In this document: piece after piece, positions 10,176 to 22,459 of the stretch | How the letters are laid out: every line of letters begins with the position of its first letter | Position numbering within the stretch: position 1 is the first letter of the stretch | Assembly (NCBI RefSeq): GCF_030733205.1 | Contig: NZ_JASHJL010000008.1 | Coordinates: forward strand, 124,001 to 188,000 | Reading direction: 5' to 3' | Length of the DNA stretch: 64,000 nt | DNA from: Mameliella sp. MMSF_3455 | GTDB lineage: Bacteria > Pseudomonadota > Alphaproteobacteria > Rhodobacterales > Rhodobacteraceae | The notes under the pieces: model-generated | Databases searched by the model: none | What the model was told of the DNA's origin: nothing | The model's input: only the letters and a program-made list of their open reading frames with translations | Program-made: the position numbers and the translations under genes

Positions 10176-11357
10176 TCAGTCGAGCGAGACCAGCAGGCGC
10201 GCCACCCCGTCCTCGTCGTAGCGGGCGGCGGCCGAGGCGCCCGCGGGCAGGCGGTGGCAGGGGATTCCAAGGCGCTTTGTCACGGCCCGGCACTGCGCCT
10301 CGGGCCAGCTGTCGTCGCAGATCACATGGGTCATCAGCGCGGTCGGCGGCGTGTCCGCCCCCGCATCGCGCCGGAGCGGCGCGAGGATCGCCGCCACCTG
10401 GTCGGCAAGGTCGTGGTCCAGGGCCTCGGGATCGGTGCCGAGGCTGGGCAGGTAGACCTTGGGCACGCGGCGCGCGGCCACGGCGCGGCCCACGCCCGCG
10501 GGCAGCAGGTTGGCCACGACGCTGGAATAGAGGCTGCCGGGCGGATAGCAGATCACGTCCGCCTGCTCGATCAGCTTGCGGTTCCGCTTGGGCAGGGGCA
10601 CCTGCGCGGGGTCAAGTTCGGCCTTGCCGTCGCTGAGAAAGCAATGGGTGATGCGCGCGTCGACCGGGGCGACCTCCTTGCCGCTGATCCGGCGCTGGCC
10701 GATGATCCGGCGCCCGTCCGCAAGGTCGACGCCCAGGTGCAGGTTCTCGTCGACGATGGCGCGCACGGTGCCGCGCACGTCCACCATCTTGGACATCAGG
10801 AACAGCACGGGTTCCAGCGCGCGGCCGTTGCCGAGGTAGCCGCCCGCCAGGATCAGGTTGCCGATGCTGGCATTGCGATAGTCGAAGTCCGCGGGCACCT
10901 CGTCGGCGAAGCGGCGCAGTTGGATGCGGATCAACTGGCGCATCGGCTTGGCGATGGCGGTGATCAGCGGGTGCTTGCCCTGGACCATCCGCCCGACCTC
11001 GGCGCGCAGGTCATCTTGCGCGGCGTCCCTGGGCAGGCGATGGCTGAACAGCGCGTAGACATCCGGCTGACCCAGCACCGATTCGTCGGCCAGCGCCATC
11101 AGGCGCGAGCGCAGGTCGCCCACAGCGGGCATGTCGAAAGCCCGGCGCAGCACCTGCGAACTGCCGCCGCTGTCGAAGGGCGTGATCAGGTGCATCGAGT
11201 TGAAACTATAGCGTTTCAGGCGCCTCGAAATGCCGTTCAACGCGCTGCCGCCGCTGAAGAACAGGATGCGCGGGCCGAGGTGCGGCGCGCTTTCGGCGCG
11301 GGCGACGCGCAGGTCATCGGGCAGGCGCGCCTCTCTTTCGACGTTGATCGCGGTCAT
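10176..11357 (-). CDS. CofD/YvcK-like protein of the GAK system
   Basis: A 393-residue Rossmann-like protein related to CofD (2-phospho-lactate transferase) and to YvcK/gluconeogenesis factor. Conserved blocks are LFFSGGSALNGISRRLKRY (binding loop), PFDSGGSSQVLRRAF, PAVGDLRSRLMALAD, NASIGNLILAGGYL and ADVICYPPGSLYSSVVANLL. The DDGGSS of YvcK reads DSGGSS here. CofD uses a nucleotide-linked substrate and YvcK binds UDP-sugars, so a nucleotide-type ligand is likely; the reaction is unknown. It is transcribed away from the Nudix-led operon of ATP-grasp and HprK-related genes, the arrangement I associate with the GAK families of NCBIfam. The ATG at 11357 follows GGAGAG; a longer start about 16 codons upstream is possible but lacks a ribosome-binding site. 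Confidence 0.85.
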   Translation of the reverse strand: MTAINVEREARLPDDLRVARAESAPHLGPRILFFSGGSALNGISRRLKRYSFNSMHLITPFDSGGSSQVLRRAFDMPAVGDLRSRLMALADESVLGQPDVYALFSHRLPRDAAQDDLRAEVGRMVQGKHPLITAIAKPMRQLIRIQLRRFADEVPADFDYRNASIGNLILAGGYLGNGRALEPVLFLMSKMVDVRGTVRAIVDENLHLGVDLADGRRIIGQRRISGKEVAPVDARITHCFLSDGKAELDPAQVPLPKRNRKLIEQADVICYPPGSLYSSVVANLLPAGVGRAVAARRVPKVYLPSLGTDPEALDHDLADQVAAILAPLRRDAGADTPPTALMTHVICDDSWPEAQCRAVTKRLGIPCHRLPAGASAAARYDEDGVARLLVSLD

Positions 11358-11429
11358 TTCTTGTCCGTCTCTCCGAATTCTGCCCGATTCCGGCTTTGCA
11401 TCCATGCCGCCGGCGGCCCATATGTCCGC
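11358..11429. promoter_or_regulatory. Divergent promoter region of the GAK locus
   Basis: The 72-bp gap lies between the outward-facing starts of the CofD-like gene and the Nudix gene and is the only place for promoters of both GAK transcripts. It is too short and too G+C-rich to pick out reliable -35/-10 elements by eye; no clear repeat is seen. Confidence 0.4.
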
Positions 11430-11885
11430 ATGGACAATGAAGACTTCATACGTCCGACGGTGCGCGCTGTCATCCGCAAGGGAAGCCTTGTGCTGGTACA
11501 GGTCAAGCAGGCGGCCTCGGGGCAACGCTACCTGACCCTGCCGGGCGGTCGGCAGGAGGTGGGAGAGACAATGCAGCACGGCCTGATGCGTGAATGTCTC
11601 GAAGAGATCGGGGTGGCGCCGCAGGTCGGCGACGTGCGGCACGTCGCGGATGTCTTTCGCAAGCGGGCGGGGCGGCGGCGCCAGTTGCTGGAGGTGCTCT
11701 TCGACTGCACCGTGCCGGATACTTACGCGCCTGTCCTGGGCGTACGGCCGGACAAGCGGCAGGTGGCCACGATCTGGGCCGATCCGGCGCGACCAGAGGC
11801 GCCTTTCCTGCCGCGCTACGACCTGCCGCTGATGCGCGGCGATGCGCCGGTTCACCTTGGGAGGCTGGACTGTGCCACGCCCTGA
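11430..11885 (+). CDS. Nudix hydrolase, first gene of the GAK operon
   Basis: A 151-residue Nudix enzyme that should hydrolyse a nucleoside diphosphate linked to another group. The complete Nudix box spans residues 40-62: G40, E46, R54-E55, E58-E59 and G61 all match GX5EX7REUXEEXGU, so catalysis and metal binding look intact. A conserved basic stretch (RKRAGRRRQLLEVLFDC) follows. The start ATG at 11430 gives the typical N-terminus of a Nudix fold (IRPTVRAVIRKGSLVLVQ). Its end overlaps the next gene's GTG start by 14 bp. The substrate is not predictable; the operon suggests that it removes or recycles a phosphorylated metabolite of the GAK enzymes. Confidence 0.88.
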   Translation: MDNEDFIRPTVRAVIRKGSLVLVQVKQAASGQRYLTLPGGRQEVGETMQHGLMRECLEEIGVAPQVGDVRHVADVFRKRAGRRRQLLEVLFDCTVPDTYAPVLGVRPDKRQVATIWADPARPEAPFLPRYDLPLMRGDAPVHLGRLDCATP

Positions 11886-13503
11886 TCCGATCGGCGAGAA
11901 CATGTCGTTCCTGCTGGCCGAGCTGGACGGCCAGCTGACAAGGCTGATCGCCTATTTCGACAATCCCCGGACCGAAACCGCGCTGCAACTGGTGCAGCGG
12001 GCGGGCTATTCGCACAACCTGTCGATGCGCGTGCGCAGGGCCTGCCTTGCGGGCATGATGCGCAGCAAGAAGGCCGAGGCGACCCAACTGCGCCTGCAGG
12101 GGATCGACACGATCGCGCGCAACCTCGACCTGATCTCGCGCCTGGGCCGGCGGGCGGTGGAACAGGCGGAACGGATCGACCGGCAGAAACTGTTGCGGGC
12201 CGATACCTATGGTCCGCCGCTGAAACGCGTGCGCAGGACCGTGGCCCGCATCAACGAGGCGCTGGAGGCGCGGGACAGCAAGCTGGCGGTCGAGATCGGG
12301 CAGGCCCGGACCGAGATGGGCACCTTTCACGATCAGCTGTTCCGGACCTACACCCGCGACATGCAGGGGGCCAAGCATACCGAGGACTTGGCCTATGGGC
12401 TGCTGTGCCTGAACGAGGTCACCCGAATGGGAGAGGCGTTGCAGACCATCTCCGAGGCGATCCTGTCGATCAACATCGGCCAGTCGGTGCAGTTCGAACG
12501 CTATTTCACCCTGCGCAGCGTGCTGGCGGGCGTGGCGCGGGACGAGGAGATCACCCTGCAACCGCTGGCCGAGACCCGGTCCGGTTCGGCCATATCCAGC
12601 GTCAACCTGCGCGGCGCCAAGGGCGAGACCGTCGCCGCCGTGTTCAAGGACGGAGACCGCCGCAAGGTCAAGGAAGAGCGCGTCGGGGTGAAAAGCTGGA
12701 ACTCGGTCTATCCGGGGCTGGCGCCCGAGATCCTGTCCTACGAGAAAAGCGGTAAGTCCGCCGCCCTGCTGATCGAGCATCTCGAGGGCGAGACCTTCGA
12801 GGATATCGTCCTGGGCGCCACGGACGAGGCTTTGGCCGAGGCCCAGAAGGCGCTGCACAAGACCGTGCGCGACATCTGGCGCCAGACGCTGACCGGTGAG
12901 CCCGCCGAGATGAAGGCGATGGAGCAGCTGGCCAAGCGGTTGCCCGACGTGCACCGCCTGCACAGGCGCTTCGTGCCGGGGCCACAGGGGGTGAACGGCG
13001 TGACCGTGGCGGGGTTCGATGACCTTGTCACGGCGGCGGCAGAGCGCGAGGCGAAGATCGCGGCGCCGTTTTCCGTCTACATCCACGGGGATTTCAACCT
13101 CGACAACGTGATCTACGACGCGGTGGGCCGCAAGATCCGTTTCATCGACCTGCACCGCTCGCGCTACATGGATTATGTGCAGGACGTGTCGGTCTTCATG
13201 GTATCCAACTATCGCCTGCAGGTGCTGGACGCGGGCACGCGGGCGCGGATCGCACGAGTGGCCACCGACATGCACGCGATGGCGGCGAAATTTGCCCGCC
13301 GCCAGAAGGACCCGACCTTCGAATACCGCCTGGCGTTGGGGCTGGCGCGGTCCTTTGCCAGTTCGACCCGCTTTGTCGTCGACGAGAAACACGCGCGGCG
13401 GATGCTGCTGCGCGCCCGCTACATCCTTGAATCCGCGCTGGCCGTGCCCGAGGGCAAGGAAGGGCGGTTCAGGCTGCCGATGAAGGAATTGTTCAGTGAC
13501 TAG
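11872..13503 (+). CDS. PhoU-like helical domain fused to APH-type kinase, GAK operon
   Basis: A 543-residue two-domain protein. Residues of roughly 10-220 are all-helical with repeated PhoU-like spacing (ETALQLVQRAGYSHNLSMRV, RRTVARINEALEARDSKL, EALQTISEAILSINIGQS). The second half is a protein-kinase-like APH domain with a putative nucleotide lysine (VAAVFKDGDRRKVKEE), the catalytic loop H405-G-D407-F-N-L-D-N412 and a metal-binding IRFIDLHRS (D426). All core catalytic residues are kept, so it should be an active kinase on an unknown substrate. The GTG at 11872 is preferred because GGGAGG lies 7 bases before it; the ATG at 11902 lacks a ribosome-binding site. It overlaps both neighbours. Confidence 0.82.
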   Translation: MPRPDPIGENMSFLLAELDGQLTRLIAYFDNPRTETALQLVQRAGYSHNLSMRVRRACLAGMMRSKKAEATQLRLQGIDTIARNLDLISRLGRRAVEQAERIDRQKLLRADTYGPPLKRVRRTVARINEALEARDSKLAVEIGQARTEMGTFHDQLFRTYTRDMQGAKHTEDLAYGLLCLNEVTRMGEALQTISEAILSINIGQSVQFERYFTLRSVLAGVARDEEITLQPLAETRSGSAISSVNLRGAKGETVAAVFKDGDRRKVKEERVGVKSWNSVYPGLAPEILSYEKSGKSAALLIEHLEGETFEDIVLGATDEALAEAQKALHKTVRDIWRQTLTGEPAEMKAMEQLAKRLPDVHRLHRRFVPGPQGVNGVTVAGFDDLVTAAAEREAKIAAPFSVYIHGDFNLDNVIYDAVGRKIRFIDLHRSRYMDYVQDVSVFMVSNYRLQVLDAGTRARIARVATDMHAMAAKFARRQKDPTFEYRLALGLARSFASSTRFVVDEKHARRMLLRARYILESALAVPEGKEGRFRLPMKELFSD

Positions 13504-14377
13504 ACGGATCGGGGTCATCGGAACCCCCGGAAAATGGTCGACAGAGGCCCTGGCCGACGCCTTCGAGGCGCGGACCGGCACGCGCCATGTGATCGACATG
13601 GCATGCGCCTCGCTGGATCTGGACGCGGGGACGCTGACCTGCGACGGGCTGGACCTGTGTTCGCTGGACGGGCTGGTGCTGAAGAAGGTCGCCGAGGACT
13701 ACAGCCCCGACGCGCTGGACCGGCTGGAAATGCTGCGCGTGGCCGAGGCCCGGGGCGTGCGAATCTTCAGCCCCGCCGAACGGGTGATCCGCCTGATGGA
13801 CCGGCTGGCCTGCACCGTGACGCTGCGCGGGGCGGACATCCCCATGCCGCCCACCACCATCACCGAGGACGTGACAGCGGCCCGCGCCGCGCTGGACCGC
13901 TATGGCGCGGCGGTGTTCAAGCCGCTGTTTTCCACCAAGGCGCGCGGCATGGTCCTGCTGGACGCAGTTGCGCCGGATGCGGATGCGCAGATCGCCGCCT
14001 TCAAGGCCGCGAATCCTGTCATGTACATCCAGCAAAAGGCCGATCTGTCGGGACATGACCTGGGCATGGTGTTTTTGGACGGCGCCTATGTCTGCACCTA
14101 TGCCCGCGTCAGCCAGACCGACAGCTGGAACACCACGATTCATTCGGGCGGGAAATATGCCTCCTACGACCCTTCGCCGGAACTGATCGAACTGGGCCGG
14201 CGCGCGCAGGCGCCCTTTGGCCTGACCTTCACCACTGTCGACATTGCGCTGACACCCGATGGCCCCATCGTCTTTGAGGTCTCGGCCTTTGGTGGCTACA
14301 GCGGGGCGTTGAAAGGCTGCGGCATCGACGCTGCCGCGCTGGTGGCCGATCATGTGTTGCAAGAGGTGTCCGCATGA
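13496..14377 (+). CDS. ATP-grasp enzyme of the GAK system
   Basis: A 293-residue ATP-grasp family protein, the class of enzymes that form an acyl phosphate and ligate it to an amine or thiol. The N-terminal preATP-grasp segment (RRIGVIGTPGKWSTEALADA) is followed by GLVLKKVAED and ERVIRLMDRLACTVTL, a nucleotide-binding VFKPLFSTKARGMVLLD, and a C-terminal metal region (GPIVFEVSAFGGYSGALKG). It resembles short RimK-like ligases in layout. The GTG start at 13496 overlaps the upstream kinase by 8 bp and follows AAGGAA; its own end overlaps the HprK-related gene by 4 bp. Such tight coupling argues for a shared complex or pathway. The substrates are unknown. Confidence 0.85.
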   Translation: MTRRIGVIGTPGKWSTEALADAFEARTGTRHVIDMACASLDLDAGTLTCDGLDLCSLDGLVLKKVAEDYSPDALDRLEMLRVAEARGVRIFSPAERVIRLMDRLACTVTLRGADIPMPPTTITEDVTAARAALDRYGAAVFKPLFSTKARGMVLLDAVAPDADAQIAAFKAANPVMYIQQKADLSGHDLGMVFLDGAYVCTYARVSQTDSWNTTIHSGGKYASYDPSPELIELGRRAQAPFGLTFTTVDIALTPDGPIVFEVSAFGGYSGALKGCGIDAAALVADHVLQEVSA

Positions 14378-15447
14378 GAACCGCCGAGGATGTGCTGGCG
14401 CAGATCGACCTGGAGGCCGCCGGGACAGCGCCCTTTCACCTGGGGGTGGGGCATGTCGGAGTCACAGTGCTGGCGCCCGAGCCCTTGCGCACGCCCCTGA
14501 TGGCCTATTTCTCGGACGCATTGACGGAAACGCCCGGCGAGATCACGGTGCACCTGCTGCCGGGGCAGGGCCTGTCGCCCGCGCCGGAGTGGACCGACTG
14601 GCAGCGCGAACCGGGCAAGGCAGGGCGCAAGGATGCGATTCACGACCTGGCCGGTGCGCGCCTGATCCGCAAGGTTCGCAGCGGCGTGACCTTCTTGCAG
14701 GCGCCGGGCGTGGCCGTGGCGCTTGGCCCGCTGGCCGAGAATGAAAGCACCGTCATCAATTTCATCAACACACAGATCCTGAATGCCTGCCTGCGCGATG
14801 GCTGGCAGCTGTGCCATGCGGCGGCGGTGACGCGGGGCGCGCGCACGCTGGCGATCTCGGGCCTGTCGGGCGGGGGCAAGTCGACCTCGATCCTGCGAAT
14901 GATGGACCTCGAGGGGATGTGCTTCCTCAGCAATGACCGCGTTCTGGTGCGCGCGGGTCGCCCGCCACGCGCGCTGGGCATCCCCAAGCAGCCGCGCATC
15001 AACCCGGGCACGATCCTTGGCAACCCGCGCCTGCGGGACATGCTGACCCCGGCCCGGCGGGCCGAACTGGAGGCGATGCCACAGGCGGATCTCTGGGCAC
15101 TGGAGGACAAGCACGACCTGATCATCGCCGAGGTCTATGGCGACGATCGCCTGCGGTTCGAAGGCGCGCTGACCGATTTCTGGGTGCTGAACTGGGATCA
15201 CGCCACGGATGCACCGACGCAGGTGGCAGAGGTCGCCCTCGCCGATCGGCCCGACCTGCTGGGCGCGATCATGAAGAGCCCCGGACCTTTCTACCAGCAT
15301 CCCGACGGGCGTTTCGAACCGAACGGTGCCGCGCCCGATCCGTCCCCCTACCTTGAGGCGTTGCGCGGGGTGCGGGTCTGCGAGGTTTCGGGACGGGTGG
15401 ATTTCGATGCGCTGGCGGCAGAGGGGCGGCGGCTCTTCGATGACTGA
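14374..15447 (+). CDS. HprK-related kinase (type B), GAK system
   Basis: A 357-residue P-loop protein distantly related to HPr kinase/phosphorylase. The Walker A loop is G163-LSGGGK-S170-T171 within TLAISGLSGGGKSTSILRM, followed by FLSNDRVLVR, a typical HprK-like metal/substrate segment. The first 150 residues form a separate N-terminal domain with no motif I recognise. There is no HPr gene in the window, so it need not act on HPr: in the GAK context the target may be a small molecule or a partner protein. It is coupled by overlaps to the ATP-grasp gene (4 bp) and the histidine phosphatase (8 bp). The combination of ATP-grasp and HprK-related kinase gives GAK its name. Confidence 0.85.
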   Translation: MRTAEDVLAQIDLEAAGTAPFHLGVGHVGVTVLAPEPLRTPLMAYFSDALTETPGEITVHLLPGQGLSPAPEWTDWQREPGKAGRKDAIHDLAGARLIRKVRSGVTFLQAPGVAVALGPLAENESTVINFINTQILNACLRDGWQLCHAAAVTRGARTLAISGLSGGGKSTSILRMMDLEGMCFLSNDRVLVRAGRPPRALGIPKQPRINPGTILGNPRLRDMLTPARRAELEAMPQADLWALEDKHDLIIAEVYGDDRLRFEGALTDFWVLNWDHATDAPTQVAEVALADRPDLLGAIMKSPGPFYQHPDGRFEPNGAAPDPSPYLEALRGVRVCEVSGRVDFDALAAEGRRLFDD

Positions 15448-16126
15448 GCGCGCCTATGTCGCCGTCCTGCGCCACGGTGCCTATCACCAGCGCAAGGGTG
15501 TGCCTTCGGCGCGGCAGCCCTGGGCGCTGACCGATGAGGGCAGGGCGCAGGCTCGCGCGGGGGCGGATCTGCTGGCGGCGATGATTGCCGAGCACGGGCT
15601 GCGCCTGTCCCCCGTCGTCCATGCCTCGCGCCAGTTGCGGGCCTGGCAGACGGCGCGCGAACTGGTGACTCGCTTGGCGGAACTGGGACATGCGACCGAG
15701 AGCGTCGTGGAAACCCCGGCGCTCGCCGAGCGCGGGCTTGGCAGTGCCGCCAACCTGACGGTGGCGGAAATCGAGGCGGCGTTGCGCGACGATCCGCGCC
15801 ATGATCCACCCCCGCCGGGCTGGAAGTCGGACAGCGATTATTGCCTGCCGCTGGAAGGGGCCGAAAGCCTGATGATGGCCGGGCGGCGGGTGGCCGATCA
15901 CCTCGCGGCCACGGCGCGGCCCGGTTGGCTGACCGTTCATGTCGGGCACGGGGCATCCTTTCGCCATGCCTGTCATCACCTTGGCATCCTGGACCGGGCG
16001 GAAATCGCCCGGTTGTCGATGTTTCATGCCCGGCCGTCACTGATCTGTCATGATGGCGATGGTAGGTGGTCCCACTTGGCCGGAGCGTGGAAGATCAGGG
16101 AACCCGGGGGCGACCCCAAGGATTGA
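15440..16126 (+). CDS. Histidine phosphatase (phosphoglycerate mutase-like) of the GAK operon
   Basis: A 228-residue protein of the histidine phosphatase superfamily. The catalytic R11-H12-G13 motif is near the N-terminus (VAVLRHGAYHQRKG), the second arginine is in HASRQLRAWQTA, and the late catalytic histidine is in HVGHGASFRHACHH. It should remove a phosphate through a phosphohistidine intermediate. The ATG at 15440 overlaps the end of the HprK-related gene by 8 bp. It is shorter than glycolytic phosphoglycerate mutase and the context argues against glycolysis: it is more likely a phosphatase that opposes one of the three kinases/ligases of the locus. Confidence 0.85.
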   Translation: MTERAYVAVLRHGAYHQRKGVPSARQPWALTDEGRAQARAGADLLAAMIAEHGLRLSPVVHASRQLRAWQTARELVTRLAELGHATESVVETPALAERGLGSAANLTVAEIEAALRDDPRHDPPPPGWKSDSDYCLPLEGAESLMMAGRRVADHLAATARPGWLTVHVGHGASFRHACHHLGILDRAEIARLSMFHARPSLICHDGDGRWSHLAGAWKIREPGGDPKD

Positions 16127-16135
16127 CCCTCCTGA

Positions 16136-17470
16136 GTGCCCGGCCGTGGCAAGGGGGATCGGAAATTGGCGCAAATCCAGGACAATGTCGGTGGCGAGTC
16201 CATCCTGTTGCCGCAGGTCTTTGACGGCGATGCCTGCCTGCCGGACCTGCCGCGTACCGTCATTCCCTGGCCAGAGGCCGGGACGCAGCCGCAAATCGCC
16301 CGCTGCCTCGACCGCGCGCGGGCGCATGGCGGCTGGCGCTGGCCGGATCGGCCTGTCGTCTTCGTCTCGGACCCGCATGCGGATGCCGAGGGCTTTCTGC
16401 GCTCGCTGACCGCCGCCGGGGTGATCCATCGTGCGGGCGGGCGCATCGGGCTGACGGGGTTCGGCCAGCGGGCGCGGATCGTGCTGGGCGGGGACAGCCT
16501 GGACAAGGGGCCCAGCAACCTGGCCCTGCTGGATGCGATTGCCGCGCTGCACGGCACAGGGGCGGATGTTCATATCCTTGCGGGCAACCACGACCTGCGC
16601 ATGCGCATGGCCGTGGCCGCCCTGCGGGGGCCTAGGTCCGCCCTGCGCGAACACCTTTTCGTCCGCATGGGCCGCAAGATCCTGCCCGCCCTGCGCGAGG
16701 TGCTGGAACGGTTCGTCACCAAGGCCGACCTGGACGCCCTGCCGGACGAGGCCACCTGCAAGGCCCGGCTCTTGCCGCGTGCGGACTGGGCGGAACGGTT
16801 CGAACGCGCGGCCCGGGCCGTGCTGCGCCCCAAGGTCATCGCCAAGGAGACCGCCAAGCTGGGCGCCAAGCTGGAGAAATTCGATGCGGAACGCGCGCGG
16901 TCGGGGATGACCTGCCGCGAGATCCTGGCCGCGGCGCTGAAATGTCACCAGGTCTTTTTCGAACCGGGCGGCGCCTATGCCTGGTTCTATGACGGCATGG
17001 ACGTTGTGGCGCGCAGCGGGTCCTTGCTGTTCGTGCATGCGGGCCTTTGCGACAGCATGTGCGATGTGCTGTCGAACGAGGGACCGGAGGCGGTCAACGC
17101 GCGCTATCGGGCGGCGGCAGAGGATGCCTCCCTGGGGTTCTATTTCGGCCCGTTGGCGAACCTTGTGCGGACGAAATACCGCGCCTCGGACTGTGCGCTG
17201 ACGGATCGCGGAGTTGGGGCGCTGCACCGCGCGGGCATTCACATGGTTGTCCAGGGACATGTCAACAACCACGCCGGCCAGCGCCTGCTGGCCAAGCGCG
17301 GGCTGTTGCACCTCGAAGGGGACATCACGCTGGACCGGGCCTCTCGCGCGCTGGAGGGGCTTGAGGGCATCGGCGCGGGCGCGACCTTGATCTTTCCCTC
17401 CGGAGATGTGATCGGGCTGAGCCGTGACTATCCGTCGGCAAAGCACTTTGCCCCGGAACGCATGAGCTGA
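16136..17470 (+). CDS. Calcineurin-like metallophosphoesterase, GAK operon
   Basis: A 444-residue phosphoesterase with the complete dimetal site: VFVSDPHAD (D79, H81), VLGGDSLDKGPSN (G119-D120, D123), ILAGNHDLRM (N151-H152) and a late VQGHVNNHAGQ. The order and spacing resemble Ser/Thr-phosphatase or ApaH/PrpE-type enzymes, but about 120 residues of insert between the GNHD motif and the distal histidines have no obvious match. It could dephosphorylate a protein, a dinucleotide or a small phosphate ester. The start is uncertain: GTG at 16136 lies 9 bp after the previous stop but lacks a ribosome-binding site, whereas TTG at 16166 is preceded by AAGGGGG and would remove ten residues. Confidence 0.82.
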   Translation: MPGRGKGDRKLAQIQDNVGGESILLPQVFDGDACLPDLPRTVIPWPEAGTQPQIARCLDRARAHGGWRWPDRPVVFVSDPHADAEGFLRSLTAAGVIHRAGGRIGLTGFGQRARIVLGGDSLDKGPSNLALLDAIAALHGTGADVHILAGNHDLRMRMAVAALRGPRSALREHLFVRMGRKILPALREVLERFVTKADLDALPDEATCKARLLPRADWAERFERAARAVLRPKVIAKETAKLGAKLEKFDAERARSGMTCREILAAALKCHQVFFEPGGAYAWFYDGMDVVARSGSLLFVHAGLCDSMCDVLSNEGPEAVNARYRAAAEDASLGFYFGPLANLVRTKYRASDCALTDRGVGALHRAGIHMVVQGHVNNHAGQRLLAKRGLLHLEGDITLDRASRALEGLEGIGAGATLIFPSGDVIGLSRDYPSAKHFAPERMS

Positions 17471-17488
17471 GACAGCGAAAGGGTCGGC

Positions 17489-17761
17489 ATGAGCGACGAA
17501 AATGGCCGTTTCTCGCATGAATCCCTGCAGGATGCGAAGACGATCAAGACCCTTCTGACCGCGCTGGCCAAGGGGTTTTCCAAGGGTGAGATGACGCTGG
17601 GCGACGAGGACGACGAACTGGTCCTGAAGACCGCCGGGTTGATGAATGTCCGCATCAAGGGCGAACGCCAGGATGGCCAGTGCGAGGTCAGCCTGCGGGT
17701 GACCTGGGCCGATCCGGCCGAACCCGCGACGCGCAAGGAAAAGCCCCGGATCGACAGCTGA
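17489..17761 (+). CDS. Amphi-Trp domain small protein, end of the GAK operon
   Basis: A 90-residue acidic protein. The pattern HESLQDAKTIKTLLTALAKG, then MTLGDEDDELVLK, then alternating hydrophobic strands ending in VSLRVTWADP fits the amphi-Trp domain, a small fold often encoded beside GAK genes. It has no catalytic residues and no transmembrane segment, so it could be a binding partner or the carrier/target that the kinases or the ATP-grasp enzyme modify; that is inference. The related XXXCH family ends in Cys-His, but this protein ends in PRIDS, so that tail is absent. It starts 18 bp after the phosphoesterase with AAAGGG upstream. Confidence 0.75.
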   Translation: MSDENGRFSHESLQDAKTIKTLLTALAKGFSKGEMTLGDEDDELVLKTAGLMNVRIKGERQDGQCEVSLRVTWADPAEPATRKEKPRIDS

Positions 17762-17880
17762 GTCCCCCCGCACAGCCGGGACGTCGGTCATTCGCCTTGA
17801 ATGGACAGGGGACCTCGTGAAAGATGGTGTCGGAGGAGCGACGCTGTCCCCAAGGGCGCGCGCGAGGGGAGGAACGACAG

Positions 17881-19146
17881 GTGACCACAGTGCTCGGCGC
17901 GATTGCCGATGATTTCACCGGTGCGACGGACCTGGCCGGTTTACTGGCGCGATCCGGTGTCCGGGTGTCGCTGCGCATGGGCGTGCCGGAGGGGCCACCC
18001 GCCGATCCGGCGCCCTTCGAGGTGATCGCGCTCAAGATCCGGACCGCGCCGGTTGATGACGCCGTGGCCGAGGCGCGCGCCGCGCTGGACTGGCTGCGGC
18101 GGGCCGGGGCAGAGCGGTTCTTCTGGAAATACTGCTCGACCTTCGATTCGACGTCAAAGGGCAATATCGGCCCGGTGGCCGAGGCGCTGATGCGGGACCT
18201 GGGCGCGGAGCAGACCATCTATTGCCCGGCCTTTCCGGAAAACGGCCGGTCGATCTTCATGGGCAATCTCTTTGTCGGGGAACAGCCGCTGGGCGAAAGC
18301 CCGATGAAGGATCATCCGCTGACGCCGATGCGGGATTCGAACCTGATGCGCCTGCTGGCGCCGCAGGTCACGCAGCCAGTGGGGCTGGCCAACCGGCTGA
18401 CCGTGGCGCGCGGTGCCAGGGCGCTGACCGCGCGGCTGGCAGAGTTGCGGGCCGAGGGCGTGGCGCATGTGGTCGTGGACGCGGTGGCGAACGAGGATCT
18501 GCGGATCATCGCCGAGGCCTGCCGCGACATGCCGCTGATGACTGGCGGCAGTGCCGTGGCCATGCCCTTGCCCGGTCTCTGGCAGGCTGACGGGCTGCTG
18601 TCACAGGCAGCGGCGGTGTCGCCGCCAGAGGTGGCGTCGGGGGCGGTGGTCCTGTCGGGCAGTTGTTCGGCGATGACCAACGCGCAGGTGGCCGCCTATC
18701 GCGCAACGGGCGCCCCCGCTTTGCAGCTGGATCCGCTGGAACTGGCGGACCGTGGCGCGGCGCCTGCGATTGACTGGCTGCGTGGGGTGTCCGCCGGGGC
18801 CGCGCCGCTGATCTATGCCACTGCCGATCCGGCCTCTGTCAGGGCCACCCAGGAACGGCTGGGCACCGCCCGTGCGGGCGAAATCGTCGAAGAGGCGCTG
18901 GCGGCTTGCGCCATCGCCGCGCGCGACATGGGGCGGCGCCGGTTTGTCGTCGCGGGCGGAGAGAGCTCCGGCGCGGTGACGCAGGCGCTGGGCGTCACCC
19001 GGCTGGACGTGGGCCGGGAGATCGCGCCGGGCGTGCCCTGGTGTTTTGCCGAAAGCGGCGGCAAGCGCATCGCGCTGACGTTGAAATCGGGCAATTTCGG
19101 CGCCGAGAGCTTTTTCACCGACGCGCTGGACATGCTGGACCGATGA
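17881..19146 (+). CDS. otnK: 3-oxo-tetronate kinase (DUF1537 four-carbon acid sugar kinase)
   Basis: A 421-residue kinase of the four-carbon acid sugar kinase family, expected to phosphorylate 3-oxo-tetronate at the 4-position with ATP. The N-terminal sugar-binding part shows LGAIADDFTGATDLAG and a KYCSTFDST motif; the nucleotide-binding C-terminal part has VVLSGSCSAMTNAQ and FVVAGGESSGAVTQAL. Immediate neighbours are OtnC and OtnI homologues, which supports this identity over other DUF1537 kinases. The GTG at 17881 is chosen because GGGGAGG lies just upstream and the family starts at this point. The next gene begins inside its stop codon (ATGA overlap). No transporter gene is found in the operon. 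Confidence 0.88.
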   Translation: MTTVLGAIADDFTGATDLAGLLARSGVRVSLRMGVPEGPPADPAPFEVIALKIRTAPVDDAVAEARAALDWLRRAGAERFFWKYCSTFDSTSKGNIGPVAEALMRDLGAEQTIYCPAFPENGRSIFMGNLFVGEQPLGESPMKDHPLTPMRDSNLMRLLAPQVTQPVGLANRLTVARGARALTARLAELRAEGVAHVVVDAVANEDLRIIAEACRDMPLMTGGSAVAMPLPGLWQADGLLSQAAAVSPPEVASGAVVLSGSCSAMTNAQVAAYRATGAPALQLDPLELADRGAAPAIDWLRGVSAGAAPLIYATADPASVRATQERLGTARAGEIVEEALAACAIAARDMGRRRFVVAGGESSGAVTQALGVTRLDVGREIAPGVPWCFAESGGKRIALTLKSGNFGAESFFTDALDMLDR

Positions 19147-19793
19147 CCGAGGAAACCCGCCTTCGAGAGCAGATCTGCACGCTGGCAAAGTCGATGTTCG
19201 ACCGGGGACTGACCGGCGGATCGACGGGCAACATATCGTCGCGCACGCCGGACGGGGGGCTGCTGGTCTCGCCCACCGGAACCAGTTTCGGGCGGCTGGA
19301 CCCGGCGCGGCTCAGCCGGTTCGACGCCGAGGGGCGTCATGTGAATGGCGACCGTCCGACAAAGGAAATGCCCCTGCATTCGGCCTTTTACGACACGCGC
19401 AGCCGGGCCGGGGCGGTGGTGCACCTGCATTCCTGTCACGCGGTTGCCTTGTCCATGATGCCGGATGTGGACGAGGATGATTTCCTGCCGCCGCTCACGC
19501 CCTACGGGATCATGCAGCTTGGCCGGGTCCGGCTGTTGCCGTTTTTCCGTCCGGGCGATCCGGCGATGGGCGAGGCGGTGCGCGGGCTGGTGGGCAAACG
19601 CTCGGCGGTGATGCTGGCGAACCACGGGCCGGTGGTGGCGGGCAAGGATGTCGAGGCCGCCTGCAACGCCATCGAGGAACTGGAGGCCACCGCGCGGCTG
19701 GCGATGCTGACGCGGGGCCTGTCGCCGCGCGCGCTGTCAGAGGCGCAGGTGCAAGACGTCGTCACGCATTTCAACATCGAGTGGGACACATGA
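19143..19793 (+). CDS. otnC: 3-oxo-tetronate 4-phosphate decarboxylase (class II aldolase family)
   Basis: A 216-residue zinc enzyme of the class II aldolase/adducin family. Residues LTGGSTGNISSR and LLVSPTGTSFG bind the phosphate, VVHLHSCHAVALS carries the HxH zinc ligands with the third histidine in VMLANHGPVVAG, and an acidic residue in PLHSAFYDT region should assist catalysis. OtnC decarboxylates 3-oxo-tetronate 4-phosphate to dihydroxyacetone phosphate. Coupled by 4-bp overlaps with OtnK upstream and OtnI downstream. An L-fuculose-phosphate aldolase-like role would be the alternative, but the gene trio fits OtnC better. Confidence 0.87.
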   Translation: MTEETRLREQICTLAKSMFDRGLTGGSTGNISSRTPDGGLLVSPTGTSFGRLDPARLSRFDAEGRHVNGDRPTKEMPLHSAFYDTRSRAGAVVHLHSCHAVALSMMPDVDEDDFLPPLTPYGIMQLGRVRLLPFFRPGDPAMGEAVRGLVGKRSAVMLANHGPVVAGKDVEAACNAIEELEATARLAMLTRGLSPRALSEAQVQDVVTHFNIEWDT

Positions 19794-20554
19794 AGTTCTC
19801 TGCAAACCTGGGGTTTCTCTGGACGGACCTGACCTTGCCGGACGCGATCCGGGCGGCAGGGGCGGCGGGGTTCGACGCGGTCGAATGCCATTGGCCCTAT
19901 GATGTGCCGCCGGCGGATGTTCGCGCCGCGCTGGACGAAACCGGGCTGGAGATGCTGGGCCTGAACGCCCGGCGCGGCAACGTGGCGGCGGGGGACAACG
20001 GGCTGACCGCGATCCCGGGCCGCGAGGACGAGGCGCGCGCCGCCATCAACGAGGCGCTGGCCTATGCGCGCGCGATCGGAACGCTGTCGGTGCATGTCAT
20101 GTCGGGCTTTTCCGGTGGCCCAAGGGCGCAAGCGAGCTATTGCGAAAACCTGGCCTATGCCTGCGATGCGGCGGCGGCCGAGGGGATCACCATCCTGATC
20201 GAGCCGATCAACCACTACGATGCGCCGGGCTATTTCCTGTCGACCTCGGCGCAGGCCGCTGCCATCATCCGCGAGGTCGGGAGGCCCAACCTGAAGATGA
20301 TGTTCGATTGCTACCACGTCCAGATCATGGAGGGGGATGTCTGTCGGCGGCTGGAGGCACTGCTGCCGTTGGTCGGTCATATCCAGATCGCTGCCGTTCC
20401 CGACCGGGGCGCGCCGGATCATGGCGAACTGGATTACGGGCATGTGCTGGATCGGATCGGGCAATTGGGATGGACCCGGCCCATCGGGGCCGAATACAGG
20501 CCGAAGGGGGCGACGGATGACAGCCTGCGCTGGCTGGCAAGGCATCGCGGGTGA
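19790..20554 (+). CDS. otnI: 2-oxo-tetronate isomerase (hydroxypyruvate isomerase-like)
   Basis: A 254-residue TIM-barrel protein of the AP endonuclease/xylose isomerase superfamily, hydroxypyruvate isomerase branch. Typical blocks are FSANLGFLWTDLTL at the N-terminus, the catalytic glutamate in ITILIEPINHYDAPGY, NLKMMFDCYHVQIM, and GHIQIAAVPDRGAPDHGELDY. OtnI interconverts 2-oxo- and 3-oxo-tetronate ahead of OtnK. The ATG at 19790 overlaps the OtnC stop codon. Length and motifs are normal for the family; a true hydroxypyruvate isomerase is the alternative but would not explain the adjacent otnK and otnC. Confidence 0.87.
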   Translation: MKFSANLGFLWTDLTLPDAIRAAGAAGFDAVECHWPYDVPPADVRAALDETGLEMLGLNARRGNVAAGDNGLTAIPGREDEARAAINEALAYARAIGTLSVHVMSGFSGGPRAQASYCENLAYACDAAAAEGITILIEPINHYDAPGYFLSTSAQAAAIIREVGRPNLKMMFDCYHVQIMEGDVCRRLEALLPLVGHIQIAAVPDRGAPDHGELDYGHVLDRIGQLGWTRPIGAEYRPKGATDDSLRWLARHRG

Positions 20555-20581
20555 CACGGGCCGCTGGCCGGGAGGGATGAG

Positions 20582-21514
20582 ATGACAGAGACAATCGCCA
20601 TCATCGGCGCGGGCCTGATTGGCCGGTCCTGGAGCGTGCTGTTCGCGCGGGCCGGCTTTGACGTGCAGGTCTGGGATGTCGATCCCGCCGTGCTGGAGCG
20701 GTTTCCGCAGGACCTGGCGACACTCTGCGATACTCTGCAGGCAGAGGCTTTGCTAGAGGACAGCGAGGGCACGCAGTCCCGAGTCCGCACCTGTCCGACG
20801 CTGGAAGAGGCGGTCTTGGGTGCCTGTTTCGTGCAGGAAAACGGGCCCGAGCGGATCGAGGTCAAGCAAGAGCTCTTTGCCCGGCTGGACGCCGCCGCGC
20901 CGCCGGAGGCGGTGCTGGCCTCGTCGACCTCTGCCATCGTGCCATCGCGCTTTACCGAGCGGCTGGCGCAGCGCGGGCGCTGTCTCGTCGGCCACCCGGT
21001 GAACCCGCCGCACCTGGTGCCCGTGGTCGAACTGTGCCCGGCTCCCTGGACCACGGCAGAGACACTGGACCGGGCCGAAGCGATCTATGAAAAGATCGGC
21101 CAGGTGCCCGTCCGGATGAGCGCCGAGCGCGACGGTTTCGTGCTGAACCGCCTGCAGGGGGCGCTTCTGGCTGAGGCGCTTCGCCTGCTGGGCGAGGGTG
21201 TGGTCAGTGTCGAGGGGCTGGATGCCACGATCAAGCAGGGGCTGGGTCTGCGCTGGACGCTGATGGGGCCGATCGAGACCATCGACCTGAACGCGCCGGG
21301 TGGGCTGATCGATTACGCGACGCGCTATGGCCCCTTTTACGCGGGCTTGGCCGAGACACCGCCGGGGCCAGAGGTTTTTTCGGTCGAGACCGCCAAAAAG
21401 ATCGCCGCCACCTGGCCGCAGGACCGCAGCCCCGACAGCATCCGCGCGCGGCAGGACCACCGAGACCGTCGCCTGGCCGCCCTGCGCCGCCACCTGATGA
21501 CTGACACCGACTGA
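20582..21514 (+). CDS. 3-hydroxyacyl-CoA dehydrogenase-like NAD oxidoreductase (lambda-crystallin/L-gulonate or carnitine dehydrogenase type)
   Basis: A 310-residue NAD-dependent dehydrogenase. The Rossmann loop is IAIIGAGLIGRSWSVLFARAG, and the catalytic region reads CLVGHPVNPPHLVPVVELC, the form found in lambda-crystallin/L-gulonate 3-dehydrogenase and in carnitine dehydrogenase. The C-terminal helical domain follows (RLQGALLAEALRLL, IKQGLGLRWTLMGPIETID). It oxidises a secondary hydroxyl of a small hydroxy acid. In canonical tetronate clusters this place is usually taken by a 3-hydroxyisobutyrate-dehydrogenase-type enzyme (LtnD), so this may be a replacement; alternatively it pairs with the BKACE gene 15 bp downstream, as in carnitine breakdown. 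It starts 27 bp after otnI with GGGAGGGATGAG upstream. Confidence 0.85.
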   Translation: MTETIAIIGAGLIGRSWSVLFARAGFDVQVWDVDPAVLERFPQDLATLCDTLQAEALLEDSEGTQSRVRTCPTLEEAVLGACFVQENGPERIEVKQELFARLDAAAPPEAVLASSTSAIVPSRFTERLAQRGRCLVGHPVNPPHLVPVVELCPAPWTTAETLDRAEAIYEKIGQVPVRMSAERDGFVLNRLQGALLAEALRLLGEGVVSVEGLDATIKQGLGLRWTLMGPIETIDLNAPGGLIDYATRYGPFYAGLAETPPGPEVFSVETAKKIAATWPQDRSPDSIRARQDHRDRRLAALRRHLMTDTD

Positions 21515-21529
21515 TCCAAGGAGATCCCC

Positions 21530-22459
21530 ATGGCCAAGCCTCGCAAGGTGATCGTCACCTGTGCCGTCACCGGCGCCATTCACACGCCGTCGATGTCCGA
21601 ACACCTGCCGGTCACGCCGTCAGAGATCGCCGAGGCGGCCATCGGCGCGGCCAGGGCCGGGGCCGCCATCGTTCACCTGCATGCCCGTGATCCGCAGGAC
21701 GGGCGCCCTGACCAGACCCCGGAGGCCTTCGCGCCCTTCCTGGGCGTCATCAAGCAGGCATCGGACTGCGTGGTGAACATCACCACCGGCGGCGCGCCGA
21801 CCATGAGCGTGCAGGAACGGGTGGGCCCGGCGGAAACCCACCGCCCCGAGGTCGCCTCGTTGAACATGGGCAGCATGAATTTCGGCCTTTTCCCGATGCT
21901 GAAACGCTTTCCGGATCTGACCCACCAGTGGGAGCGCGATTACGTCGGCAACAAGGACATCATCTTCAACAACAGTTTCGGCCAGATCGAGTACATCCTG
22001 ACCACCCTTGGTGCCTCCGGCACGCGGTTCGAGTTCGAGTGTTACGATACCTCGCACCTCTACAACCTGCGGTATTTCCTGGACGAGGGGCTGGTGAAAC
22101 CGCCGCTGTTCATCCAGACCGTCTTTGGCCTGATGGGTGGGATTGGGGCGCACCCTGACGACGTGCAGCACATGAAACGCACCGCCGATCGGCTGTTCGG
22201 TGACCAGTACCGCTGGTCCGTGCTGGGCGCGGGGAAGAACCAGCTGCCGATTGCCGCGATGGCCGCGGCGATGGGCGGAAATATCCGGGTGGGGCTGGAG
22301 GATTCGCTCTGGCTTGGCCCCGGGGTGCTGGCGAAAACCAACGCCGAGCAGGTCGGCAGGGCACGCCAGATCGTCGAGGGGTTGGGCCTGGAACTGGCCA
22401 GCCCGGACGAGGCGCGCGAGATGCTGGCCTTGAAAGGCGCCGACAAGGTTGGCTTCTGA
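21530..22459 (+). CDS. BKACE family beta-keto acid cleavage enzyme (DUF849)
   Basis: A 309-residue zinc-dependent TIM-barrel enzyme that cleaves a beta-keto acid with acetyl-CoA. Family landmarks: KVIVTCAVTGAIHTPS at the N-terminus, zinc-binding IVHLHARDPQDGRP, NITTGGAPTMS, EVASLNMGSMNF, FECYDTSHLYNL and GGNIRVGLEDSLWL. Length is normal. Coupled with the preceding dehydrogenase it could take a 3-keto acid made there and split it, the logic of carnitine catabolism (dehydrocarnitine cleavage); no thioesterase partner is present, so the substrate stays open. The ATG at 21530 has AAGGAG seven bases upstream. Confidence 0.9.
   Translation: MAKPRKVIVTCAVTGAIHTPSMSEHLPVTPSEIAEAAIGAARAGAAIVHLHARDPQDGRPDQTPEAFAPFLGVIKQASDCVVNITTGGAPTMSVQERVGPAETHRPEVASLNMGSMNFGLFPMLKRFPDLTHQWERDYVGNKDIIFNNSFGQIEYILTTLGASGTRFEFECYDTSHLYNLRYFLDEGLVKPPLFIQTVFGLMGGIGAHPDDVQHMKRTADRLFGDQYRWSVLGAGKNQLPIAAMAAAMGGNIRVGLEDSLWLGPGVLAKTNAEQVGRARQIVEGLGLELASPDEAREMLALKGADKVGF

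Follow-up and report, generated by a model that had tools for sequence, protein, structure and literature searches.

Positions 10176-17761 of a 64,000-nucleotide stretch of the Mameliella sp. MMSF_3455 genome (contig NZ_JASHJL010000008.1, positions 124,001-188,000; the whole stretch is referred to below as the window) carry an island of eight genes of the type that NCBIfam calls GAK. Comparison with relatives in other genomes demonstrated that the eight genes form one unit, beyond what chance would give, and that Pho-box-like sites stand before the GAK operon in part of these relatives; the link to phosphate is new here and was computed for part of the hosts. Judged by the families to which its enzymes belong, the island may represent a phosphate-responsive cycle of kinases, a ligase and phosphatases acting on a small metabolite, a reading that is favoured tentatively and with somewhat less than even confidence.

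The window proteins were scored by profile searches against NCBIfam and Pfam, each model being applied with its own cut-off (given after the score). All eight genes of the preliminary description were found, in the order and at the positions claimed there:

10176-11405, minus strand: CofD/YvcK-like protein, TIGR04357 CofD_rel_GAK, 486.5 bits (cut-off 340); an alternative start lies at 11357
11406-11429, no strand: divergent gap between the cofD and nudix genes, Pho-box-like site absent, matrix score -3.7 (threshold 7.7, see below)
11430-11885, plus strand: Nudix hydrolase, PF00293, 40.9 bits (cut-off 21.1)
11902-13503, plus strand: PhoU-APH kinase fusion, PF01636, 44 bits (cut-off 23.2), and PF01895, 25.8 bits (cut-off 23.5)
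13496-14377, plus strand: ATP-grasp enzyme, TIGR04356 grasp_GAK, 434.1 bits (cut-off 300)
14374-15447, plus strand: HprK-related kinase B (HprK-B), TIGR04355, P-loop GLSGGGKST, 282.9 bits (cut-off 200)
15440-16126, plus strand: histidine phosphatase, branch 1, PF00300, 53.8 bits (cut-off 21.7)
16136-17470, plus strand: calcineurin/PPP-type metallophosphoesterase, start uncertain, PF00149, 21.0 bits (cut-off 21.5)
17489-17761, plus strand: small amphi-Trp protein with the motif F-x-H-x-S at residues 8-12, TIGR04354, 60.7 bits (cut-off 31)

Within the island the Pfam cut-offs were passed by CofD, NUDIX, APH, PhoU, RimK, His_Phos_1 and Amphi-Trp, and Metallophos lay slightly below its own. The ends of nearly all genes had been said to overlap; this is so at three of the six plus-strand junctions (8, 4 and 8 bases), but the other three are gapped (16, 9 and 18 bases). 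GAK had further been taken as the NCBIfam name of the ATP-grasp and HprK-related pair. That is correct for the ATP-grasp enzyme, but the second model whose description carries the term is the CofD-like one; it is absent from the names of TIGR04355 (HprK-related B) and TIGR04354 (amphi-Trp), both of which are tied to the system by co-occurrence. The model listing likewise gives no function for GAK. With four of the eight island proteins over the curated cut-offs of these models, GAK as a set of modelled families is already known to NCBIfam, and it is also visible in annotations, for example on the plasmid of Tritonibacter mobilis F1926 (L123). The expression "undescribed system" consequently holds for the function, no paper describing the GAK system having been found in the open-licence literature of PubMed Central, but not for the families. 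Added here to the NCBIfam models are the PhoU-APH, histidine phosphatase, calcineurin, Nudix and SixA-Nudix members together with the phosphate link, of which the SixA-Nudix member and the phosphate link also go beyond the preliminary description.

The composition of the unit was derived from two sets of loci. GTDB species genomes were scanned with a 12-sequence ATP-grasp alignment, and at least 494 stretches were found to encode a relative; the best 80, chosen by their likeness to the window and hence biased towards it, constitute set A (81 loci with the window). According to the record titles this set is pseudomonadotal throughout except for L038, whose title names the actinobacterium Enemella evansiae; with an ATP-grasp enzyme 86% identical to that of the window, this record has probably been mislabelled or contaminated. 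Among the 81 loci, ATP-grasp was present in 81, PhoU-APH in 80, HprK-B in 80, amphi-Trp in 79, calcineurin in 77, histidine phosphatase in 74, Nudix in 57 (E<=1e-3) and CofD in 50. The gene order is near-constant, L110 being reshuffled with most of its content retained. The second set comprises 36 loci, 12 of them the ATP-grasp loci of a phylum sample of 200 genomes and 24 taken from the order of one sampled genome, G158 (GAK in 27 of 293 genomes), or from the class of the window (GAK in 2 of 385); some of these loci are broken by contig ends, and the search models had been trained on set A. Here PhoU-APH and calcineurin were each found in 35, amphi-Trp in 33, HprK-B in 32, histidine phosphatase in 29, CofD (in the locus) in 11, SixA-Nudix in 6 and Nudix in 3, and four genomes with a GAK ATP-grasp gene lacked detectable HprK-B at E<=1e-6. 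By these counts and the genomes without HprK-B, PhoU-APH, ATP-grasp and calcineurin make up the core, joined in all but a few cases by amphi-Trp. The distances of the members correlate with those of the ATP-grasp enzyme (r 0.80-0.89; SixA-Nudix 0.65), but this was not used as evidence because species relatedness alone would also yield such a correlation.

Consistent co-occurrence across genomes, proposed earlier as a check on the unit, was found in the phylum sample, in which ATP-grasp, HprK-B, amphi-Trp and CofD were all searched for. ATP-grasp exceeded its cut-off in 12 of the 200 genomes and a further one carried a partial copy, giving 13; the weak matches in 138 genomes represent other ATP-grasp enzymes. 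HprK-B occurred in 15 genomes at E<=1e-20, 13 of them over the cut-off, and in 13/13 of the ATP-grasp genomes (Fisher p 1.2e-18), the two additional genomes carrying it at a contig end. Amphi-Trp was found in 18 genomes, including 11 of the 13 (p 6e-12), and CofD at E<=1e-40 in six, five of which fall within the 13. Independent scattering of the genes among relatives, also considered in the preliminary description, was not seen: the locus sets and the 200 genomes keep the set together, and kinases, ligase and phosphatases as a single unit, complete in the window, are borne out. The exception is CofD, which is unlinked to the GAK locus, though co-occurring with it, in two genomes (G142 and G158) and stands alone in a third, G006. 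In this last genome (L122) the GAK-type CofD (E 4e-167) is accompanied neither by HprK-B nor by an ATP-grasp enzyme over the cut-off, and its neighbours, judged by eye, resemble polysaccharide export genes.

Because the core PhoU-APH protein contains a PhoU domain, Pho boxes were sought before the first GAK gene. The Pho-box consensus is a direct repeat of CTGTCA at spacing 11, and a site was counted when at least 10 of the 12 positions matched. Such a repeat was found at 12 of the 80 set-A loci, always in the forward orientation, versus 6 of 565 control windows taken upstream in the same loci. Counted by genus label (46 labels, assigned from record titles), CTGTCA was the best of 180 permuted hexamers (9/46), and the runners-up were shifts of the same motif. 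The consensus was satisfied at 2 loci of an 11-locus set, both of one genus, and at 7 loci of a 23-locus set with upstream DNA, belonging to two genera, versus 0/51 controls; in the 23-locus set a one-base shift of the motif scored equally. As a positive control the pstS promoters of 28 genomes were examined, and since only 10 of the 28 passed, the consensus is an insensitive criterion. A weight matrix was then trained on these 28 promoters, its threshold (7.7) being placed so that 98% of the pooled controls fall below it. It flags 25 of its 28 training promoters, and the GAK operon starts of 19/80, 13/23 and 4/11 loci as compared with 13/565 and 0/51 controls (Fisher p 7e-11, 1e-8 and 1e-4 for the sets of 80, 23 and 11, respectively). 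Shuffles of the 80 set-A windows gave 3.6 hits on average and at most 10, versus the 19 observed. The records behind these 19 are alpha- and gammaproteobacterial and include Paracoccus, Roseibium, Tropicimonas, Thalassospira, Methylophaga and Marinobacter. Computation thus places Pho-box-like sites before the GAK operon in part of the relatives, and no report of GAK as a member of the Pho regulon was found in the open-licence PubMed Central literature.

Some GAK relatives also directly adjoin genes of the Pho regulon. In L202 cofD is immediately preceded by a complete pstSCAB-phoU operon, and in L203 such an operon lies at a distance of 4 kb from GAK, these loci representing two genera with one genome each. 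In L170 a gene of the pstS family, under its cut-off, follows amphi-Trp, and the flanks of L087 and L090 contain pieces of PstS or PhoU. PstS was encoded within 12 kb of ATP-grasp in 2 of 28 genomes, with 0.25 expected (p 0.03). The unlinked cofD genes of G158 and G142 (L133 and L135, one genus) are situated a few kilobases from ugpC, over the NCBIfam cut-off in both, and the same stretch contains a glycerophosphodiesterase-like gene under its cut-off; ugpC and glycerophosphodiesterase serve phosphate scavenging.

A number of observations weigh against the phosphate-responsive cycle. The GAK copy of the window itself differs from these relatives: in the 200 bases before the nudix gene no Pho-box-like site was found by the matrix (-3.7) or by the consensus. 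The pstS promoter of the same host, with 7/12 matches, fails the consensus as well; it passes the matrix, having been among the training promoters. The majority of loci fail the matrix (61/80, 10/23 and 7/11), its threshold was set on the controls' own 98th percentile, and hits on the reverse strand occur at 6/80, 5/23 and 1/11 loci. The 23-locus set is uneven, most of it coming from the order of G158, which was chosen after the Pho box of G158 had been seen; 7 of its 13 matrix hits belong to the genus of G158, the other genera giving 6/16 in two genera. The seven consensus hits of this set are confined to two genera, and the two such hits among the 11 other loci likewise belong to the genus of G158. 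Upstream of the unlinked cofD genes of G158 and G142 Pho boxes were sought and none was found. As to the neighbourhood, the other sampled genomes of the L202 and L203 genera have PstS on contigs apart from GAK, and Pst or PhoU genes occur in the fetched flanks, which are of unequal length, of just 5 of 119 GAK loci. Set A and the sampled genomes may have species in common. Finally, some loci lack HprK-B or the histidine phosphatase, so that the proposed cycle is not universal.

The catalytic residues of the kinases and phosphatases are retained: in set A those of the active sites in APH, HprK-B, the histidine phosphatase and the calcineurin-type enzyme are conserved with hardly an exception. 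PhoU-APH, with profile matches in the PDB to PhoU (4q25, 1xwm) and APH(3'), retains the catalytic HGDxxxDN, and its residues H395, D397, N402 and D416 are present in 80/80. R11 and H12 of the histidine phosphatase are found in 74/74, and D56, H58, D97, N128, H129, H278 and H352 of the calcineurin-type enzyme in 73-74 of 77. The ATP-grasp enzyme resembles the alpha-L-glutamate ligases RimK and MptN in family and overall alignment and is closest to glutamate ligases, but its scores remain below their cut-offs (MptN 121.9 vs 350 bits, RimK family 77.1 vs 143.4). It also differs in carrying EVSAFGG in 80 of 81 loci where RimK has E-V-N; the asparagine of E-x-N in ligases of the RimK/MptN type binds metal. 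With neither the family cut-offs nor the E-x-N motif, membership in RimK/MptN by sequence was rejected.

Taken together, the eight genes form one island, which would carry out a reversible cycle of phosphorylation and ligation, tied to phosphate status, with a small and probably phosphorus-bearing metabolite as its substrate. Going by family membership, PhoU-APH would phosphorylate the metabolite, its PhoU half sensing the phosphate system or docking to it; the ATP-grasp enzyme would couple an amino acid or another carboxylate via an acyl phosphate; and a further phosphate would be attached by HprK-B. Removal of these phosphates would fall to the PPP-type, histidine-phosphatase and Nudix enzymes, so that the pool would fill and drain with phosphate supply, and the amphi-Trp protein may act as an adaptor.

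Among the alternatives, the one that survives best is that the island is conserved for a function outside all the readings considered here, for instance a specialised cofactor or a peptide modification unrelated to phosphate. The 61 set-A promoters without a matrix site, that of the window included, favour it; the enrichment of Pho sites and the phosphate genes nearby in several lineages speak against it, and it is judged unlikely.

A second alternative is a messenger of phosphate status. The island could make and break a soluble pyrophosphate-like signal, with the PhoU domain as its reader. Inositol pyrophosphates and diadenosine polyphosphates are signals of this kind elsewhere. Part of the evidence comes from a ninth member of the system, a protein that joins a SixA-type phosphatase with a Nudix domain and occurs in 37 of the 81 loci either between HprK-B and the histidine phosphatase or past CofD on the opposite strand. 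In a survey of flanking genes (protein clusters found in at least 12 of the 81 loci) it was the sole cluster added in many loci of both classes. Its two halves correspond to known phosphatases, the closest solved relative of one being SixA and those of the other human DIPP1-3 (E about 1e-12), followed by yeast DDP1 and Ap4A hydrolases, but the GAK protein differs in the order of its SixA-Nudix fusion and in that 10 of the 36 copies covering the SixA half (L054, L057, L060, L063-L065, L070, L075, L079 and L082) carry another residue where the RHG histidine is expected; the Nudix residues that were checked are retained. In addition, the PPP-type enzyme gives a PDB profile match to ApaH (2dfj, E 0.0012), and the Pho-site enrichment and phosphate-gene neighbours would fit such a signal. 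Against it stand the resemblance of the ATP-grasp enzyme to amino-acid ligases and its Pfam matches, which are of the RimK and GSH-S types, the inositol-phosphate kinase family not being among them. The fusion, moreover, is missing from the window locus, the genome of which yields just separate partial matches with 32-40% identity, and from most of the second set (6 of 36 present), and sequence alone does not reveal the specificity of a Nudix enzyme. A messenger of this type is considered quite unlikely. In the endosymbiont of Lamellibrachia barhami (L107), PhoU-APH and SixA-Nudix are each split in two pieces, possibly through assembly errors or decay in the symbiont.

A third alternative, suggested earlier and the leading idea from set A, is a phosphoprotein switch modelled on HprK acting on HPr/Crh, in which HprK-B would phosphorylate the serine (or histidine) of the amphi-Trp motif F-x-H-x-S and the PPP-type and SixA/histidine phosphatases would reverse it. 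HprK-B has the predicted fold of HprK/P and PEPCK, with the P-loop and an aspartate conserved: its AlphaFold2 model (predicted local distance difference test score, pLDDT, 93.5) matched 2pc9 (PEPCK, E 3.9e-6), 1ko7 (E 1.2e-5) and 1kkl (E 1.4e-5) in Foldseek. The motif is intact in 79/79 amphi-Trp proteins of set A, and H10 and S12 occur jointly in 0/15 amphi-Trp relatives outside GAK. AlphaFold2 models the small protein as a single helix with four strands (pLDDT 81.9; five models, 57 to 82) and places S12 immediately ahead of the helix 16-32. SixA, for its part, acts on the phosphocarrier NPr (PMC7948535, PMC6282199). By sequence, HprK-B differs from HprK/P as the separate family TIGR04355, in a locus without an HPr-type partner; its Pfam matches include no HprK family, AAA_33 alone matching weakly, and the PDB profile match to HprK 1jb1 is weak (E 0.69). 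With the HprK family match absent, membership in HprK/P by sequence was rejected. No PDB entry, HPr included, matched the amphi-Trp model at E<=0.001, and an HPr fold was rejected on this ground.

It was the second set that broke the idea of a relay from HprK-B to amphi-Trp. There the motif is intact in 25 of 34 amphi-Trp proteins. Nine loci, all of one genus, keep HprK-B and have alanine for the motif serine (the histidine being kept in 4/9), and three loci, all of one other genus, keep the motif in genomes where HprK-B was undetected at E<=1e-6. These mismatches represent two lineage events, not twelve. Since motif and kinase separate in this way, a simple phosphocarrier is unlikely, the amphi-Trp protein as phosphorylated substrate lost its support, and the switch, retained as a rival to the metabolite cycle, is improbable. 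Outside GAK, eight amphi-Trp genes on haloarchaeal plasmids (L124-L131) have no constant neighbour within 1.5 kb on either side, and universal stress proteins are encoded near three of them.

Control of envelope precursors, corresponding to the yvcK (glmR) neighbourhood of firmicutes, was also weighed. The CofD-like protein would handle UDP-sugars and the other enzymes would tune it. Its profile matches the YvcK structure 2ppv (E 2.5e-31), and YvcK-type structures are the only solved ones found at E<=0.01. Against TIGR01826 (YvcK) it reaches 97.3 bits with a cut-off of 196, and membership in YvcK/GlmR by sequence was rejected on that account. The catalytic residues of GlmR are D40, D41 and N198 (PMC10128056; PMC5482804 was used as well). 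By hand mapping onto these positions the protein keeps two of the three, D62 in 50/50 and N283 in 47/50 corresponding to D40 and N198, but differs at D41, which is serine in 50/50. With CofD present in the locus in just 11 of the 36 second-set loci, this explanation too is improbable.

A role in phage defence or as some other mobile accessory system, to which the patchy spread (GAK in 2/385 genomes of the class of the window) and the plasmid copies (a close ATP-grasp in 5 of 72,556 plasmid records) might point, was rejected as scarcely credible, PADLOC and viral contigs having yielded nothing specific: one of nine proteins matched in PADLOC, a generic Nudix (E 8.9e-8), the other eight giving none at E<=0.01, and among the 30 viral-contig hits of a pattern search there is none that encodes a relative.

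In the flanking-gene survey mentioned above, 14 clusters had unlabelled members. In twelve these overlap GAK genes nearly throughout, in other frames, and two were true neighbours, one of an ABC-transporter ATPase type (22 loci) and one TRAP-like (12 loci); among the gammaproteobacterial loci (hand-made list) one has the former and none the latter. In the window, an acyl-CoA dehydrogenase-like gene upstream of the island lies outside the set. Directly downstream, at 17824-22459, follow the 3-oxo-tetronate kinase, phosphate decarboxylase and isomerase-like genes of a 3-oxo-tetronate operon, and after these a hydroxyacyl-CoA dehydrogenase-like gene and a KCE-type (keto-acid-cleavage) gene, likewise outside GAK. 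The plasmid locus of Tritonibacter mobilis has no annotated CofD or Nudix genes and adjoins a ketoacyl-synthase/acyl-carrier-protein cluster.

GAK is thus a well-conserved set of enzymes that recurs in many bacteria, with some parts named and no function assigned, and its link to the phosphate-starvation regulon raises questions open to experiment, namely whether the operon is induced at low phosphate and which phosphometabolite shifts upon its deletion. Many of the hosts are marine by their record names, and phosphate is often scarce in the sea. There is a small chance that GAK makes, edits and destroys a new soluble phosphate-rich compound, serving as a phosphate reserve or status signal, switched on by PhoB and read by the kinase-fused PhoU domain. 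Such a compound might be regarded as a counterpart, in role and not in descent, of the inositol-pyrophosphate phosphate signalling of eukaryotes, and, if real, would be a new element of bacterial phosphorus physiology.

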